Assembly (NCBI GenBank): GCA_020080175.1
Contig: JAGHQL010000110.1
Location: forward strand, 25,232-89,231
DNA: 64,000 nt
Source: Glutinoglossum americanum
Lineage: Eukaryota > Ascomycota > Geoglossomycetes > Geoglossales > Geoglossaceae
Direction of reading: 5' to 3'
The notes under the pieces are model-generated. The model searched no databases. It was given only the letters and a program-made list of their open reading frames with translations, and was not told the DNA's origin. Each line of letters starts with the position of its first letter. Positions within the stretch are counted from its first letter, which is position 1. The position numbers and the translations under genes were made by a program. Of this stretch, positions 21,027 through 64,000 are shown in pieces.

Positions 21027-23380
21027 TCAATCATCATCATCGTCCCTCTCCCAGTCCCCCCCTTCAACCTCCGCCCACCCCCACCCCCACCTCCTTCCCC
21101 CCTCCTCGCCTCCCCTCCTAACCCCTCTTGATTCCTCCCCCTCCCTCCAGCACCTCGCTAGAAAATCATCTCCCACAGTGACTAACTCCCCCTCAGATGT
21201 CCACGATAGACCTGTGACCTCTGTTTGGTGGCCTCGGATTAACGCTGCGCCGTGGTGGTGGATGGGGATTGTGTCGTTGAGGCGGGCAGGGAAGCTGCTG
21301 GTGCCGCCGCTGCTGAGGCTGCTGCTTGAGCGGCTGAGGCCAAGGCGGGGGGTTCGGGGGTTTTCGGGGCTGTTGCCGCTATTGTTACCGGCGGGTGTGT
21401 CTGAGGGGTGGCGACGACCGTAGAGGTGTTTATTCATGTATTGCTCATCCGTAGGAAAGACGACCGCGCATCCATCGCTACTTGCGACGGCTAACATCTC
21501 TGTGTGTATTCCTCGGGCGAAACGGAGCGCGGATTTGACGTAGAAGCTCGTGGCGTGGAGTTTTGGGTGTCGAAAGCCGTAGATAGGCCCTAGGCCTTCC
21601 TTCCCGGCGCCGGCTCCTGATCTCCGTGGACGGGAGGCCGGCGAGGAAAGCTCAGGGGCGCTTCCGAGGATGAGGTGGGATGTGGAGTAGGCGTAGAGGG
21701 TGTTGTCTCTGCAGAGACTGTAGATTCTGGCACCATCGCGGCTGATGTTTAGTGAATTCAGACCGAACTGTCGGTAGCCGTCATGGTTCTCTGGTTGGCG
21801 CGTTGTGGAGAGAGGAACTGCACGACCCCGTCGATGCGTATGTGTGGTGCGGAGATCCCAGAGTTTGATGCACGCGTTTGCCTCTGAAGCTGTGAGGAGC
21901 AGATGCTCTCTTCCTTCTGGAAGGAAAGCCAATGCAGTAATTGAAACGTCTCCCCGCCTACCGGGAGACTCACCTTTGGCCGCTGCTGCATCGAGAGGCG
22001 CGGTAGGCTTGCCGGATGCCACTTGAGGGATCCCAGGCCGACGATCTGCATGAGCATCGTAAATGCTGTTGACTGTTCGAGCCCAGTTTATCTTCCTTGG
22101 TGGCATATCTGGCAGCCCATCTTCGTCAAGGCCCACATGAAAGTCCCGAACGGGCCCGTCCCACCCCTTGCACCTAAGATCCCAGATTTGCACGGTCCCA
22201 TCGCGGCTTGAGGTCGCTATAACGCTGCTAGAGACTAGGCCAGGCTGAAATCTTACCTGTTTGACTGAGGATACATGGCCTGCCAGAACAGCCGAGGTCC
22301 GTTGAGTTGGCATGTCAATGATACGGGCTGTTTGATCACCGGAAGCAGTCGCGAGAAGGGAATCTGAATACGAGAATGCCAGATCCAGAATAGCATTGGC
22401 GTGTGGGCGGAAGCCTAGGTGTGCTTGTTTGAAGCCGTATTTATCGTTCTTCGCGGTCTCAACAAGTCTGATGCCGCCTTCCTCGTCTCCAATAGCAACA
22501 AGAGAGTTTGCTATTAACTTCAGTTAGCCGTAAATGCTAGAGAAACACCTACTATTTGGACTCACTATTACAGCTAGCCGTACAAAATGGCAGAGCTCGT
22601 AGCTGATTCATGCTGACGCTCATACAGAGGTGTGAATCTCCTGGGCGGCTGTAAAAGTTGCCAACCTCACTCCGCCAGTCTGGAGCCATGTTAGCATTAG
22701 ACCAACACTTCAGAGTAGCGGCTGGAGGTGTTCATACCAGCACAGTGGTGCTGTATCATTGGTCCTCCGAAAGCCCCTGGAAACCCTAAGCTCCGTTGAA
22801 ATAATCGAGCACTAACAGTAGCAAGACTGGAACGTTTTATTGGTGCCACAGGGCTATTCTCCTCCTCCTCCCCCTCCTCCTCTTCCTTAACTTTGCCAAT
22901 GGCTTCTTGCCTTACGTCTTCCCCCGCGTCCATTTCATCAACTATAGTCAAACGCTGTACTTTTGTTCTCTTTCCTCCACAAAGTCGATCAGGCGATGTA
23001 TCTGGCGACAGCAAAGCCTTTCTCTTCCCAGCACTTCCCTCACTATATAGCACTTCGATCCCCCCTGCTGAAGTGCGAGTATCGGCAAAAGGACTGAGCC
23101 CCCCTCGGCCGTTCCCTACACAGGTGTGATTGTTGGCACTGGCGGTGATGTTGCGCAGTGCCTGTCTCGCCGCGCTGGCTTTTGTTCCCCTCTTCGAAGA
23201 TAATCGCGGAGTGAAAAACCTCCTGAATGAATTGGGCGTAATTGGTGGAGGCTTCTTTAGTTTAGTGCCTTCCACACTATCTGCCGGAGAGGCAGGCGAG
23301 GGCAGATGGGCCTCTGTTAACACCAGACTCGGGGCCTCGAGTCGCGGTACTAGGACTGCATCCTCCTGATTGAAAGCCAT
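21027..23380 (-). CDS. CDT2: Cdt2, WD40 substrate receptor of the CRL4 ubiquitin ligase
   Basis: DCAF-type receptor that links DDB1-Cul4 to PCNA-bound substrates such as Cdt1. Three exons: 23380-22738, 22679-22566, 22510-21027; 746 residues from the ATG at 23380. The Ser/Pro-rich N-terminal region has a PPPITPNSFRRFFTPR motif also typical of fungal Cdt2. The WD40 propeller follows, with NSLVAIGDEEGGIRLVET, SLLATASGDQTARI, VQIWDLRCKG and IKLWDLRTT; the two WDLR motifs are candidate DDB1 contacts. The motif FGLNSLNISRDGARIYSLCR is strongly Cdt2-like. The C-terminus, after TGLSWTSEGELVTVGDDFLARCW, is Arg/Gly-rich. An in-frame upstream ATG at 23563 would add 61 residues, but it overlaps a CACGTG box and the added sequence is low in complexity, so I prefer 23380. 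The gene lies head-to-head with RRP5. Confidence 0.92.
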
Positions 23381-23697
23381 GTTGGCAACTAACTTGAGGG
23401 AGGCAACAAGACTCAGCTCGCGTGAAGGACAATCGTACGTCGGAAGGGATGGAGCTGGCCCGCGTCTTGTGGAAGAGGTTGGAGAACTTCGCGACTCGCG
23501 AAATAGTCGCGGTGGCAGGGAAAGTCGCGTAAAACCACTTAAATCCCCAACACAGTTAGACATCACGTGAGAAAATCTTGGCAGTAACAACGAAATTTCC
23601 CAAATTCTTTTATCGCCTACGGCGTCACAACACAGGACGAACGCACCGTCTACTGACTGAATTAGATCAATTCTTAGAGGTAGACAGGTCGTTAGCT
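23381..23697. promoter_or_regulatory. Bidirectional promoter of CDT2 and RRP5 with an E-box
   Basis: Only 317 bp separate the two outward start codons (134 bp if the upstream CDT2 ATG is used). It contains the perfect palindrome TCACGTGA at 23563-23570, the established bHLH (Cbf1/USF-type) core. It also holds several CGCG-containing motifs near 23471-23530 (TCGCGA, AGTCGCG), reminiscent of but not identical to MluI cell-cycle boxes. Control through them is inference. Confidence 0.5.
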
Positions 23698-39076: not shown

Positions 39077-41794
39077 ATGCCAGCAGTCGCAGTTATGACC
39101 GCCGCCGCTTCGAGTTCAACCACGCGAAAGTCGAACCTCGCCCCCGAAAAGAGATACAAATGTCAGTTCTGCAGCCGGGCTTTCAGTCGGAGCGAACACC
39201 GTAGTAGACACGAGAGATCGCGTAAGTGCCCTTTATTTTTAGAGAAGAATAGCCGTGGAGGACGTTTTTTTTTTTCTTTCGTTTGTGACAATCATTTCGT
39301 TGCCAGCCCGGTTTACTAACAACGCGAATTACAGACACGAAAGAACGACCCTTCAAATGTTTGAAATGCCGAAGCACTTTCGTCCGACGAGACCTCCTGT
39401 TGCGACATGATCGAACCGTGCATGCAAAGGATGGAGGGGTCCCTCTCCACAGCGAAGTCAAGCGACGAGCTGGGGCAAAGAACCCCCCGATGGCCGGACC
39501 ATCAAAGCCATCGATCACAATCGATACTGCGGCCCTAGAACAGATCGAGGCAAGCAGCGAAGGGATGCTAGATCTTGAGACAGCAGCGATGCTAATGACA
39601 GATATGCACCACAAGGCGACCGCGGCCATGTCTAATCACTCGGCTGCTTTTGGTGCGGGGCTCGAAACAGCCATCTCTCCCAGTGGTGCTGCTCTCCTAG
39701 AGTCCTCCGTCACATATCCCTCGGGCGCAGTGTCGCTCCCTCAAGTGCCATGGGATACCTTCATGCCACAGGACGTGACTGAGTCTAAGGCTCATTCGAT
39801 TTCGTCAAGCGCGTCTGGCTCACAGGACTCGCAATCGTCGCAACTCTCGTTCACCAGTGTAAGCACCCTACAGCCTCCGAATCCTAATCAACTACCCCCG
39901 ATTATGGAGCGATCATTTTCCAACGGTGATTTACTTGCTCCTGTGTTGCAACCACAGTCACACTCGCTGCAAGTTTCCGGCGCTGATACTCCAGGCGCCT
40001 ATTCGCCGTATCCTTACCTGGCTGGACCCGCATCTCCTCTTGAATACCGGAGATCACCTGGCCCATCTGGTGGATCGCCGCCTAAGGCACCTCAAGTTGA
40101 GACCGATGAAGAGCGTGAAACTATCCTTGGCAATATTCGCGAGATTGATTGCGAGGAAGCCGCACTAGATAGCTTCCGCCTCCCGAGTAGGACAGCATTG
40201 AATCGGTATCTGGCAACATATTTCAACTTGTTCCATCACCACATGCCATTCCTACATCCAGCATCCTTCCAGCCATCGACCGTTTCCCCCCCATTGCTGC
40301 TGGCAGTTCTTTCGATTGGTGCTCTCTACACTTTTGAACAAGAGCAAGCATACATGTTTCACATTGGGTCAAAAGTCCTCGTGAACCAATTTTTGCAGAA
40401 GAAAGAGAATTTCAGTTCGCGAAAATGCCCATTGTGGACTATGCAGAGCTCGCTCCTCAACATGATCTTTGCTAGTTGGAGCGGAGATCCAAAAGGTCTC
40501 GAATGGGCATGCTCGATTAAAAGTCTCCTCGCAAATGTCAGTACCCTATCTCACCCCCAGTTTACAACTCTGAATACTAACACGAGCGTAGATGGTCGCT
40601 GGTAATAGGTATGAGCTTAAGTTGCGCACGGAGGGACGTGAAGGCGCCCAACCCAGTCGTGAGGAGTGGGTAGAGGATGAAGGATGTAGACGTACCTACT
40701 ATGCAGTCTACATCTTTTTCGGTCTCCTCACGCTTACCTATAACCATACGCCTGCGATCAACTTCAATGAGTTTGACTCTCTGGAGCTTCCTTCTTCCGA
40801 ATCGCTTTGGAGCGCTGAAGGCGTAGATGATGCGACATGGCGCGAACAGCTCACAGCATCCGCGATTACGAAGTTCAGGGAGGCACACGACAATCTCTTC
40901 CAAGGCGAACCCGCCCGATATAGCGCTTTTGCTACACGTGTCATGATCAACGCTCTTTTCCTTGAGGTGTGGTACATGAAGAGAAGTCCCGAGGCGCTTC
41001 AGGATGTCGTTACGGAATACAAACTTCGGCTTGCTTTGGAGACATGGGAGAAATCCTTGGTCCTTTGCGAGACCGAGACCGTTGTCATCCCATTGAGTGC
41101 ACCCCAAAAAGGCCATCCACTTATCTTCAATGCTATGGCAATGTATCGCAATACTCGTGCACGCTTGGAGGTAGACCTCAAATCTATTCAAGAAGCGCTC
41201 CGGTATCATGACTCGTACGAGGTAGCGGCTGCGATGACCACCGCGCGAGACAATGTTAAGAGGTCTCAAGAGATGATCAAGGTCATCGAACAATGCTTCG
41301 ACTGTATCGAGGTTGCAGCTGTGCAGGGCATTCGCTGGGTCGCGAGAATATCCGCGACAAACTGGAGTGTTGAACACCCTCTGTGTGGCTTGGACTTGAT
41401 GGTCATCCTTAGCCTGTGGCTCTATCGTCTGGAACATGACGAGGAGCCTGCTACCGATGAGGAACTTGCCATGTACAAAAAAGTTCGGAACTTGTTTGAC
41501 GATGACTCTGTCGATATCTACGGTTCCAAATTAAGTTCTATTGTAGCACGACTCTGGGGTAGCATGCTGGATGAAGTAGTTGTCTGGGGGTATGTTCATT
41601 TCTATCCACAAGCAATCGGTCATCGGGCTAACAACGTATACAGAATTACCAAGCTGATGGGGGAATCCTTCAAGCTGCATTCTCAGGCTTTAGTCGGTTA
41701 TGAAGATGCCATTGCGTCATGCTCTGGAGCTTCAACGCCTGGGATGTCTACTCCGAGTGAGGAGTTGGACATTGATAGTAGTAGTGGGTTCTAA
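39077..41794 (+). CDS. C2H2 zinc-finger transcription factor with fungal_trans domain
   Basis: Nuclear transcription regulator of 849 residues in three exons: 39077-39221, 39335-40536, 40592-41794. Two classical C2H2 fingers lie near the N-terminus (YKCQFCSRAFSRSEHRSRH and FKCLKCRSTFVRRDLLLRH). The first intron sits between His of finger 1 and the TKERPF linker, and splicing restores SHTKERPFKC. A long Ser/Pro/Gln-rich activation-like region follows. Then comes the fungal-specific transcription factor domain (from about residue 330; ALNRYLATYFNLFHHHMPFLH, LLLAVLSIGALY, CRRTYYAVYIFFGLLT). The combination of an Adr1/AmdX/Klf1-type finger pair with PF04082 is well known in ascomycetes; the target genes cannot be inferred here. 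The fingers are intact, with conserved Cys2His2 spacing. The 113-nt first intron has a long T tract before its acceptor. Confidence 0.93.
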
Positions 41795-50200: not shown

Positions 50201-53200
50201 ATTATTGAAATCGCTGGCGAAGTCAGCCAGCGGGGTCGCGTCAATGTCCTCCGATTCGGGTACGCCCAAAGAGCTTTGCAGGGGGCTGTTATTGCCTGGG
50301 TCTAAGTCTGTGCCCAGCCCTTGCATCATCTGCTTCAGCATGGCCTCCAAGAAAGCTTTCTTGTTTTGCAGGATACTGCCGCTGTGGCTGAGTAAGTCGA
50401 ACTATGAGATGGTTAGCTAAGTATTACACATGCTCGAATGAAACACATACCTGGGTCCTTAGAACACTATCTTCAGGGGCTTTGATAGTTTCCAACTCAT
50501 ATTCGCCCAAAATACGCGTGTGATTCTCGATTTGCACCTCCAGTTTTTGCAGACGCTCTTTAACCAGATCACATTGAACATGCCGAGGATCTAGGTGGAA
50601 ATTAGGAAAAGTTGCTCAGGAGGTGCTTTAATAATGAAGATGAGGGTACATACCATTGTCTTGTGAAATTATGCAAAAGTGTGATGGTTCATTACCAAAG
50701 GGGCTCATCCGAGCGGTTTCCCCAGATATCGAGTCGGAGTGGTCGGTCTGACGGAAATACGTAAATCTGGGAGCATAGGCAAGTGGCATGATTTTTGTTT
50801 TAGGGTTAGACTCCGCCGGAAGCACCCAGTCTAGCTCAACAAAATCATCCATATCAATCCACGAAAAGTCATTATCGGGAATTGTGAAACGAGCCATGTC
50901 CACCGAGCTGACGATTTCTTGATATGATGCCAGCGTGTCCTCTGTTGCCCGCTTGAGATCTTCTGCTGTAGTACCAGCAATGCTTGCAGATACAGCTCTA
51001 ATGTCGGCGGAAATAAAATCTAGTTGAGTTTGATTGATTCGCATACCGCTCGTAGCTGTGGGCTCTTTCCGGCCCTTAACTTGGGTGAGGAACTCTTCGC
51101 GCCTTTGGTGAAGATCAAGCATGAAGCTGTCCAACTTGACCTTTAAGCCTGTCGCCGAGACGATATTTTCACCTTTTGCATATTCCTCAGCATCCTTGTG
51201 CTTGTAGATATGACTCATGAAAAGAGGAGAGAATAGGACACTGTATTTAATCGTCGCAAGATGGCGGCCAAATTTCTTGCTCGACTTCTCTATCCCTGGC
51301 CAGAGACGCCCCTGGCGGATTGGGAGAGACATTGCTCCTGAAAACAGAGACCACCAGTTGAAAAAATGGGTGAAGAAGCGAGGTGTGAGATGGACCGTGT
51401 TATAACTAGAGGATGGGGTCACATTAGAGACAGACCAATCTCGATCCATCGGCGCCACAATAGAGAGCGAGAGATGGATAAAGTCGCTGCGGAAACCACG
51501 AAAGGCGTCATACTCCTGCATTAAGATTAGTCTAATGAATCCACAAATATGCGGCACAAGTACATACCTGACCATTGGGTGGTTTTGCGTGTTCTGGGGA
51601 CCTCAACGTGACCTCATAATGCGGGGTGAAGTCGAAAGAGCGTTGGTTGTCGTCGACTTTCCTTTCGAACACAAGCCCTGCAAGCCATCTCACATTACCG
51701 GACAGCTTCATGACCACCTTCTTGAATAGCGCGCCGTTTTTGTAACTACTACTACTACTGCTGCTAGAAATACTCTCAGCATCCTGCCCAGACTCCTCAA
51801 TAGACTTGCGGGCTTGGTGGCTAAAATCGGGAATAGCCAAGATATATTCTCCACTGTCGACGGTCATGAATTTCCGGGGATCTGGGTCTTGACATAAGTT
51901 CCAGCGGACATCATTTCGCCAGCACATGGCAAAGCCTGCGCCATGACCTGTAATGACATAGGGGTCACGCGAACCTTTTATACCCATCAGCAAGGGCGAG
52001 TAGGGCCTAGGAGGGAGACTATATACCTTTGAGCAATAAATGCACATCGCCATCGCCTTTCCATGCCACTTTGAAACGGGAATGGAAGACAAGGCGGATC
52101 TTATCCCAGAATCCTGTACGGTCTGATGGGTCGACTTGAGGCTTTGTGAAAGTTTCAATTATTAACATCATATCTTGTATTGCAGGTTGATATGAAGTTC
52201 CCCATGTTATCCGAGTTGGATATGACGTGTTGATATCGATGTTAAAATCAGAGTACGTTTTCACAGGTGATACCGTGCGCCGAACGTTGATTGCAAACCC
52301 GCCTCTTCCAGGCTCGTCGGGCGGCACAATGTTCACTCTAGCAATTCGCGTTGACTGTGAGTCGCGAAATTCTTCCGCAATGATGAAATCTGCAGTTAAA
52401 GACAAGCTTGGTGTACGACTAAATTGGGAGGGCCGCATTGAAGGAACGTGTATTAGTGGCAGAGGGTAATCTCTTAAGTTTATTCGAGCTTCGCCCATGT
52501 CGACCTTGATGCCTAGCGGCACCAGGAGCGAGTATTTCATATCTCGTGGCATGCCCTTGCCGATTTCATGAAGGAATGTTGAATAATCTCGAATCGGAAA
52601 CGAAGGCGTGTCGAGAACGATGTGAACGTCGCTAATCAATGCAGCCATCAAACCAGGTCGTGGGGGAATGGCCAATGTAGTCTCCATATCTTGAACGTCG
52701 TCTGGTAACTCGTCTGAGCCCCAGAAATACTCGCGGATATCCTTCATCTTACTTCTTTGGAAGGCATAGCCGGAATCGATTACTTTCTTCCAGCTTCGAG
52801 AATTATGTTCTTCCAGCTTGTACTCCGCCTCGTCCCGGGAAATTTTGGCGGTCTCACTGAGAGCGCAAAGCCTGTCGGGGTCATAACGCATTCTACAACG
52901 CCCTCCTATGCTAGGTCTTGAGGGCGCTTGTTTTCTGTTGTGCTCTTCATTGCTCTTACTGCGCAGCCTTTGTTCAACATTGGTAGGGATTTGGCTCCTC
53001 CCACGAGGATGTGTTGAGCGAGCGCGAAGACGAGACGGCTCACGACGCTGCTCAAACTCCTCCATCTTCTTGACCTTGACATTGAATGCCTCCTCTCGAG
53101 CTAGGCGCTGCTTCTGCTCAGCTAGCCCCAAGCGATAGATGGTGCCAAGCTTCCATTCAAATGCACTATCTTCAAGCTCAAAGAGCAGAGCCCTGCTTCG

Positions 53201-61741: not shown

Positions 61742-62576
61742 ATGTCGCTAACGTCCGCATCGACCCTCTCGTCCCTGTCCCTAGCTACAGCACCATCACC
61801 GGTGCCAGCAGCAGGCCCGCAATGCCCGAACTGCGGCATCAAGCTACCGCATTCGCACCACCAGGACATTCCCGAAGACGCGCAGCGCCGCATAGAGGAG
61901 CTGGAGGCACAGGTTAAGATCCTCACGACGAAGGCCACAGCAGCAGGTACGCAACCGACACGCATGAAAACTTCCTTTTGAGCAACTGCGGTTTTTTTTT
62001 TTTTTTTTTGGGTTACGGAACAAAGACGAGTCAAGCTGACGAAAAGCTGTGTTTTGTTTCTCTCCAGTGGACAAGCTAGCAGACTACGAAGACGAGCTCC
62101 AGCGCCTCAAAACCACACAGATGACCTACCTCTCATCCTCCCCGTCCGCCGCCGCTCCTCCGGGCAGCATCCCTCCAGACCCCCCCTCCCTCAGCGCCCG
62201 CGCCCAAAACCGCCTCTCCTCCCTCCTCACCTCGCGCAAATCCTCGCCCAACCTCTCCCGCGACGCCGCCTCCCCCCCCTCCTCCTCCCCCGACTCCCTC
62301 TCCGACCTCCAACGCGCGCTGACCCACGAGCGCTCGCTCCGCGCCAAAGCCGAGGGCCAGCTAACGCAGGCGGCCGGCGAGCTGGAGGAGCTGTCGGCGA
62401 GCCTGTTCCAGCAGGCCAACGAGATGGTGGCTACGGAGCGGCGGGAGCGCGCGAAGCTCGAGGCGCGCGTCAAGGTGCTGGAGGAGCGAGATGGGGAGAA
62501 GAGGGTGCGGCTAGAGAGGCTGGAGAGGGCGGTGAAGAGGGTGGAGAGGGTTAGGGGGTTGTTGGTTGGTTCGTAG
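61742..62576 (+). CDS. Sec2-domain protein, putative Rab GDP/GTP exchange factor
   Basis: Short Sec2p/Rabin8-type coiled-coil protein, 237 residues, in two exons (61742-61946 and 62068-62576). The Sec2 helical region lies at the C-terminal end: a heptad-rich stretch beginning LQRALTHERSLRAKAEGQLT and containing the hallmark ELEELSASLFQQANEMV, which is the Rab-binding part of the Sec2 coiled coil. The family activates Sec4/Rab8-type GTPases in exocytosis. Near the N-terminus CPNCGIKLPHSHH may bind zinc (Cys2-His). The middle is Ser/Pro-rich. It is much shorter than S. cerevisiae Sec2 (about 760 residues) and ends soon after the coiled coil, as do several filamentous-fungal paralogues, so it may be a second Sec2-like protein rather than the main exocyst GEF. 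Exon 2 is very GC-rich. The intron contains an 18-nt T run before its acceptor. Confidence 0.88.
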
Positions 62577-63386: not shown

Positions 63387-63836
63387 CTACCCGCACCCCA
63401 CCACGTCCCTATACCCCCCCCACCTAACGGGTCCCATCCCCCCAACCACCAGCCCAACAGCCCCAAGCACGCTAACCCCCCCATAAAAATACGCGTGCTT
63501 CCTCCTCAGCCCCCTCAGCTCCACGACCCACGTGCTGACCGTGGTCAAGCACCCGCAGAACCCATCCTGGACGCCCTGCAGCGCCTGACACGCCAACCCG
63601 GCAGCCAGCCCGAGCCGCGCGGAGCGCTGCAGGCTCCAGCAGACGGCGAGCACGAGGGTGCCGGAGAGGTTTGAGGCGAGGGTCCCGAGGGGCAGCGCGG
63701 GCAAGAGCGGGTTCAGCCGCCGCGAGGCGGCAAAGCGGAGGAAGGTTCCGGGGGGGGAGAGGGCGAGGGCGATGAGCGCAGCGCGGCGGGGGGCCAGACG
63801 GGGGGGATCCCAGACGGCGGCCGCGACAGCCGCCCA
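63387..63836 (-). CDS. FEX1: Fluoride exporter FEX (CrcB family), C-terminal domain only
   Basis: C-terminal CrcB domain of a fungal dual-topology fluoride channel. About 149 codons are open from the TGG at 63836 to the TAG at 63389-63387. Family marks: AAAVWDPPRL, then LALSPPGTFLRFAASRRLNP, then LPLGTLASNLSGTLVLAV. The signature QDGFCGCLTTVSTWVVEL contains the Gly-Phe-Cys-Gly and Thr-Thr-x-Ser-Thr motif. It ends RKHAYFYGGVSVLGAVG, as in yeast FEX1. The complete protein has two such domains and ~370-400 residues, so at least the first half is missing. The frame meets TGA at 63839-63837 and no splice acceptor is visible there. Upstream bases instead encode a GST in another frame. The region is very GC-rich (over two thirds). 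It is a truncated gene, cut by a chimeric join or a rearrangement. Confidence 0.88.
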   Translation of the reverse strand, partial: WAAVAAAVWDPPRLAPRRAALIALALSPPGTFLRFAASRRLNPLLPALPLGTLASNLSGTLVLAVCWSLQRSARLGLAAGLACQALQGVQDGFCGCLTTVSTWVVELRGLRRKHAYFYGGVSVLGAVGLVVGGMGPVRWGGYRDVVGCG

Positions 63837-64000
63837 TCAATTATGTGAGGAACATTAGGAAATGTTAGACCTAGAGAATACTTAGCAGCTTGCCAGTCTT
63901 CACGAGTTTTATAACGACGATCTTCGAATGGGATGCCACAATAGTCGAGGAGAAGTCTTACAATGTGACCACGCCCCTTGAAGTTAAAATATCCGAGGAT
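63836..64000 (-). CDS. Glutathione S-transferase N-terminal (thioredoxin-like) domain, mu-like, fragment
   Basis: The minus strand encodes an uninterrupted stretch of 55 codons that enters from the right edge. In order it reads LGYFNFKGRGH (glutathione-site loop with the early Tyr), VRLLLDYCGIPFEDRRY, EDWQAAKYSLGLTFPNVP and IIDG. This is the thioredoxin-fold half of a GST. The DW..K.SLGLTFPN.P..IDG pattern is that of mu-class enzymes, known mainly from animals and ciliates/protists rather than fungi. The start lies beyond base 64000. The homology ends exactly at IIDG near 63836, where the next residues should continue with a SNAIL/TESxAI-type motif but the DNA becomes FEX instead. Base composition is clearly lower in GC (about 42-45%) than the adjoining FEX part. 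Either this is DNA of another organism joined here, or a rearranged fungal copy. Confidence 0.75.

Follow-up and report, generated by a model that had tools for sequence, protein, structure and literature searches.

A mu-type glutathione transferase fragment abutting a partial FEX gene at a fungal contig terminus: probably a chimeric contig end

At its 3' end, a contig of a fungal genome assembly passes within a few bases from the C-terminal half of a FEX fluoride channel gene into a piece of a mu-type glutathione transferase (GST) gene, both on the minus strand. Judging from the assembled sequence alone, we consider it very probable that this terminal GST scrap is an assembly or library artefact, that is, a chimeric contig end. 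On this view, assembly of the contig would have reached the host FEX gene, whose coding DNA is very rich in GC, and the contig would then have gained about 165 bases from a read that was chimeric or misplaced, or from a ligated fragment, in each case bearing part of a mu-type GST gene; we infer that the fungus itself most likely has an intact FEX gene, which is cut short only in the assembled sequence. A first-pass annotation had put forward a chimeric contig as the simplest explanation, and it is the one best supported by the results below, strengthened by the location of the GST piece at the contig terminus.

The contig, referred to here as C14, comprises 89,231 bases and belongs to an assembly of 317 contigs and 25.8 Mb. 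The window, i.e. the whole stretch of DNA analysed (64,000 nucleotides), corresponds to bases 25232-89231 of C14, and window base 64000 is the 3' terminus of the contig. The GST piece occupies the terminal ~165 bases, with no sequence beyond it, and the join accordingly lies about 165 bases from the C14 terminus, close to a contig end as in a chimeric contig artefact. Among eight long window frames submitted to Pfam, seven matched families of ordinary eukaryotic genes, one of these seven families being fungus-specific by name; the families found include CSN5, RRP5, RasGEF, a fungal-specific transcription factor, Hobbit/FMP27 and Sec2p.

The GST piece (63833..64000, minus strand) consists of 56 codons without a start codon and is open at the contig end. 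Its translation, read from 64000 to 63833, yields 56 residues (ILGYFNFKGRG...FPNVPHIIDG), and the last few bases before the join can be assigned to either side. The earlier reading of the last ~165 bp as a mu-like GST N-terminal domain was borne out by a search of solved structures, in which the best match was the class-mu 1gsu (E 9.2e-12), aligned over nearly the whole length of the piece. This search returned 147 distinct sequences at E up to 1; among the best 60 of these 147, which were inspected, the entries near the top are named mu or plain GST, and within this comparison set of solved structures the domain is closest to mu-class enzymes. We take the solved mu-class chains matching the piece to be of animal origin. 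The Pfam GST_N match was weak (18.8 bits against a curated cut-off of 20.9), and an NCBIfam profile search of the piece gave no match. Like the N-terminal domains of the mu-class chains 1gsu and 7opy, the piece aligns throughout, including the GY start and the PNxPxxIDG motif; unlike them, it lacks a 7-residue insert at what is presumably the site of the mu loop, and contains no C-terminal domain. The mu loop does not define all members of the class, because class-mu 26 kDa chains, which we assume to be from flatworms, match the piece with just two residues more than the query. As for the claim that the domain stops at IIDG, homology does end there, but the frame stays open for 39 more codons of wrong-frame DNA.

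On the other side of the join, positions 63387..63836 of the minus strand encode the C-terminal domain of a FEX fluoride channel followed by its stop codon. The first-pass annotation had recognized here the C-terminal half of a fungal-type FEX, in a different reading frame from the GST piece and missing its first half, and both Pfam (CRCB, E 1e-17) and the solved structures (FEX1 chain, E 2.5e-19, with query residues 21-140 on chain residues 206-330) uphold this assignment. Homology to CRCB and FEX1 starts at residue 21-22, about 63775, the first ~20 residues past the join (63836 to about 63775) being assigned to FEX by open frame and composition only. Compared by eye with the FEX motifs given in PMC5417652, the piece has GxxxR in its first helix and N in its second, as well as YxxxS and the S/T motif TTVSTWxxE, in which W takes the place of F in yeast FEX1; it is a CrcB-like C-terminal domain with pore II motifs. 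Unlike FEX, it has neither the N-terminal domain nor the linker helix, because the contig ends. As the open frame and the compared motifs are kept, no decay is visible in the C-terminal domain, and the appropriate label for this FEX gene, which the contig end interrupts, is partial, not pseudogene.

The join itself can be confined to 63832..63839. Maximum likelihood analysis of the last 400 bases placed the GC change point at 63835, where GC content falls by 0.364 between adjacent 165-base blocks. The sharp drop pointed out previously is thus the steepest step in the window, the next ones being 0.309 at 62128 and 0.261 at both 63389 and 43823. The first open FEX-frame codon is at 63836, and the first upstream stop in the FEX frame, the TGA at 63839-63837, lies beside the join within GST-type DNA. 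There are no gap letters at the join, and each piece has an open frame of its own that reaches it. It is general knowledge that the C-terminal half of a fungal gene could begin at an exon border, in which case the GST piece would lie within a FEX intron or be part of an adjacent gene next to a FEX exon. However, no AG occurs from 63870 to 63774 on the minus strand, so that no splice acceptor there can open the FEX frame, in agreement with the first-pass annotation, and acceptors further upstream would precede the FEX-frame TGA at 63839; we therefore regard an ordinary exon border as hardly credible. One NotI and one BamHI site just FEX-side of the join were considered as signals of a cloning adapter and given no weight, because the window contains three NotI and 15 BamHI sites and the pair at the join sits in open FEX-frame sequence.

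Composition was also considered as proof of a foreign origin of the scrap and rejected, since its codon score falls well inside the host range. The synonymous codon score of the scrap is unremarkable among host sequences: with 14 of the 17 host frames (leaving out 22697-23695, 40577-41530 and 50628-51602), 77% of 1453 overlapping stretches of 56 codons score as low or lower, and in a repeat with all 17 the figure is 80% of 1580; with 16 frames (without the antisense 40577-41530) or all 17, nothing of note was altered. The GC3 of the scrap is low, with about 1% of host stretches as low, and 7% of 6322 168-base stretches of the window have an overall GC content as low. Measured by codon score, the more unusual of the two pieces is FEX (71.6% GC), whose value comes near the host minimum. 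Within the window, whose GC content is 50%, a Sec2p-type coding stretch at 62100-62576 reaches up to about 73% GC, and strong local GC swings are therefore normal here. Since the scrap does not stand out from the host in its codon choice, it is its gene family alone that makes it appear foreign.

The host-like codon choice would also suit a misjoin within one genome, in which a real, otherwise unassembled mu-type GST gene of the same fungus was mistakenly attached to the FEX contig. With its 317 contigs, the assembly may lack parts, and the first half of FEX was indeed not found in it. We nevertheless consider such a misjoin unlikely, on account of the searches for further GST sequences and of the GST classes named for ascomycetes. 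When the 56-residue piece was compared with the assembly in a protein search (E up to 1), the single match was the piece itself, and no second copy was seen. A GST_N search of the assembly gave five matches at four places, in contigs C36, C257, C260 and C309, and did not list the scrap; family searches thus miss divergent members, and their negative results are of limited strength. The relatives of these GST-fold places are of non-mu type: among the solved relatives listed for the four loci (the best 60 of 146 at C257 and of 145 at C260), no entry is named mu. The C36 locus has as relatives a putative GST followed by GSTs, one named theta; the C257 locus a GST-like group including YfcG and, lower down, Ure2p-type chains; the C260 locus an uncharacterised protein followed by GSTs and stringent starvation proteins; and the C309 locus a GST family protein followed by phi-type chains. 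As to published classifications, the GST classes that PMC4470081 names for eight ascomycetes do not include mu, though six of the 23 Alternaria sequences are unclassified there.

The C-terminal half of a mu-type GST was likewise not found in the assembly by GST_C_3 and GST_C searches, which have limited sensitivity. The former gave two weak matches, one in C1, resembling a Xi-class/glutathionyl-hydroquinone reductase type, and one in C285, resembling a glutamyl-tRNA ligase. Four of the seven GST_C matches lie within 600 bases of the four GST_N places and one is again that in C285; the remaining frames are C309:42223, which by eye we take to be of an AlkB-GST fusion type, and C1:27729, presumably an EMAP-type tRNA-binding protein. 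The long open frame near 42223 of C309 spans 1127 residues (601 in the examined locus) and appears by eye to encode an AlkB-type dioxygenase followed by a GST-like domain.

The first-pass annotation had also called for a search of the assembly for an intact FEX gene, and none was found, only the C-terminal half in C14 being matched. A protein search with the FEX piece returned itself as the single match, and a CRCB family search gave one match, at the same place. The N-terminal half was not detected by own-protein, CRCB or pattern searches, whose sensitivity is limited and which had no positive control for a fungal FEX N-terminal half; this half may hold introns in fungi. A degenerate TGFCG[ST] pattern gave five matches, against four for a reversed control, none of them FEX-like in context.

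A true genomic junction would mean that FEX is broken in this strain by an insertion or rearrangement, which might have brought in a mu-type GST gene gained by horizontal transfer; this reading has to be weighed against these results. The absence of another FEX half among the assembly matches agrees with it, as does a sharp join free of gap letters at which each piece is open in its own frame. Yet there is a single junction, after which the sequence ends within about 165 bases at the contig terminus; the C-terminal domain of FEX is still open in frame and retains the compared motifs, with no visible decay; and the searches, within their limited sensitivity, detected no further part of such a GST. 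We hold a true junction to be very improbable. The alternative raised in the first-pass annotation, an insertion or transfer that broke a fluoride-resistance gene, thus found no positive support, with one junction, no far side and no other gene parts found. More improbable still is that the fungus gained a mu-type GST gene, of a class not named for ascomycetes in PMC4470081, via an insertion into FEX by which the first half of the channel was lost or moved elsewhere.

If, as we favour, the contig end is chimeric, the GST DNA may come from a host, from prey or from a contaminant. Table 1 of PMC11925944, which includes no fungus, records mu-class GSTs in one amoeba, in both mammals and in each of the 19 ciliates. 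A literature search joining the terms mu class, ascomycete, fungal and glutathione transferase found nothing. When viral contigs were scanned for relatives of the GST piece, 47 pattern matches were obtained, none of which proved to be related. In bacterial and archaeal genomes the scan yielded 101 pattern matches and a single hit, a likeness of 19 residues within an apparent transport permease of a Desulfobacula MAG, encoded next to an ABC ATPase (proteins named by eye); it was rejected as chance. A 5.8S search of the assembly for signs of a second organism gave two matches, both below the cut-off.

A comparison of contig ends is consistent with the proposed course of events. Both ends of 20 of the 317 contigs, picked by number and not at random, were inspected, C14 having been noticed beforehand; 38 of the 40 ends were readable and two were all N. 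The terminal 165 bases have at least 75% GC in five of the 38 ends, and several ends consist of G or C runs; some contigs therefore stop in GC-rich DNA, while most do not. Within the last 400 bases, no other end of the 38 has a GC step as large as that of the 3' end of C14, which also shows the largest fall towards the end (0.364, the next being 0.236), a pattern that fits a contig running out inside the GC-rich FEX gene to which the scrap was then added. In the same set, two pairs of ends, C2 (5') with C5 (3') and C300 (5') with C50 (3'), share 58 and 50 25-mers, respectively, when both strands are counted, which would amount to some 50 bases per pair if they are contiguous; since the C2 and C5 ends as printed have the same orientation, the contigs probably break at a shared repeat.

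Terminal scraps such as that of C14 call for caution, as they can give rise to false claims that genes have been transferred horizontally or fused, or that fluoride resistance has been lost; before this contig is annotated, its last ~165 bases should be flagged. Although the C14 end was evaluated here solely on the sequence as assembled, in which it differs from the chimeric and contaminated contigs of draft assemblies treated in PMC8862208, it resembles them in the features that define the join: a short piece of an unrelated gene, out of frame with its neighbour and set off from it by a step in composition.
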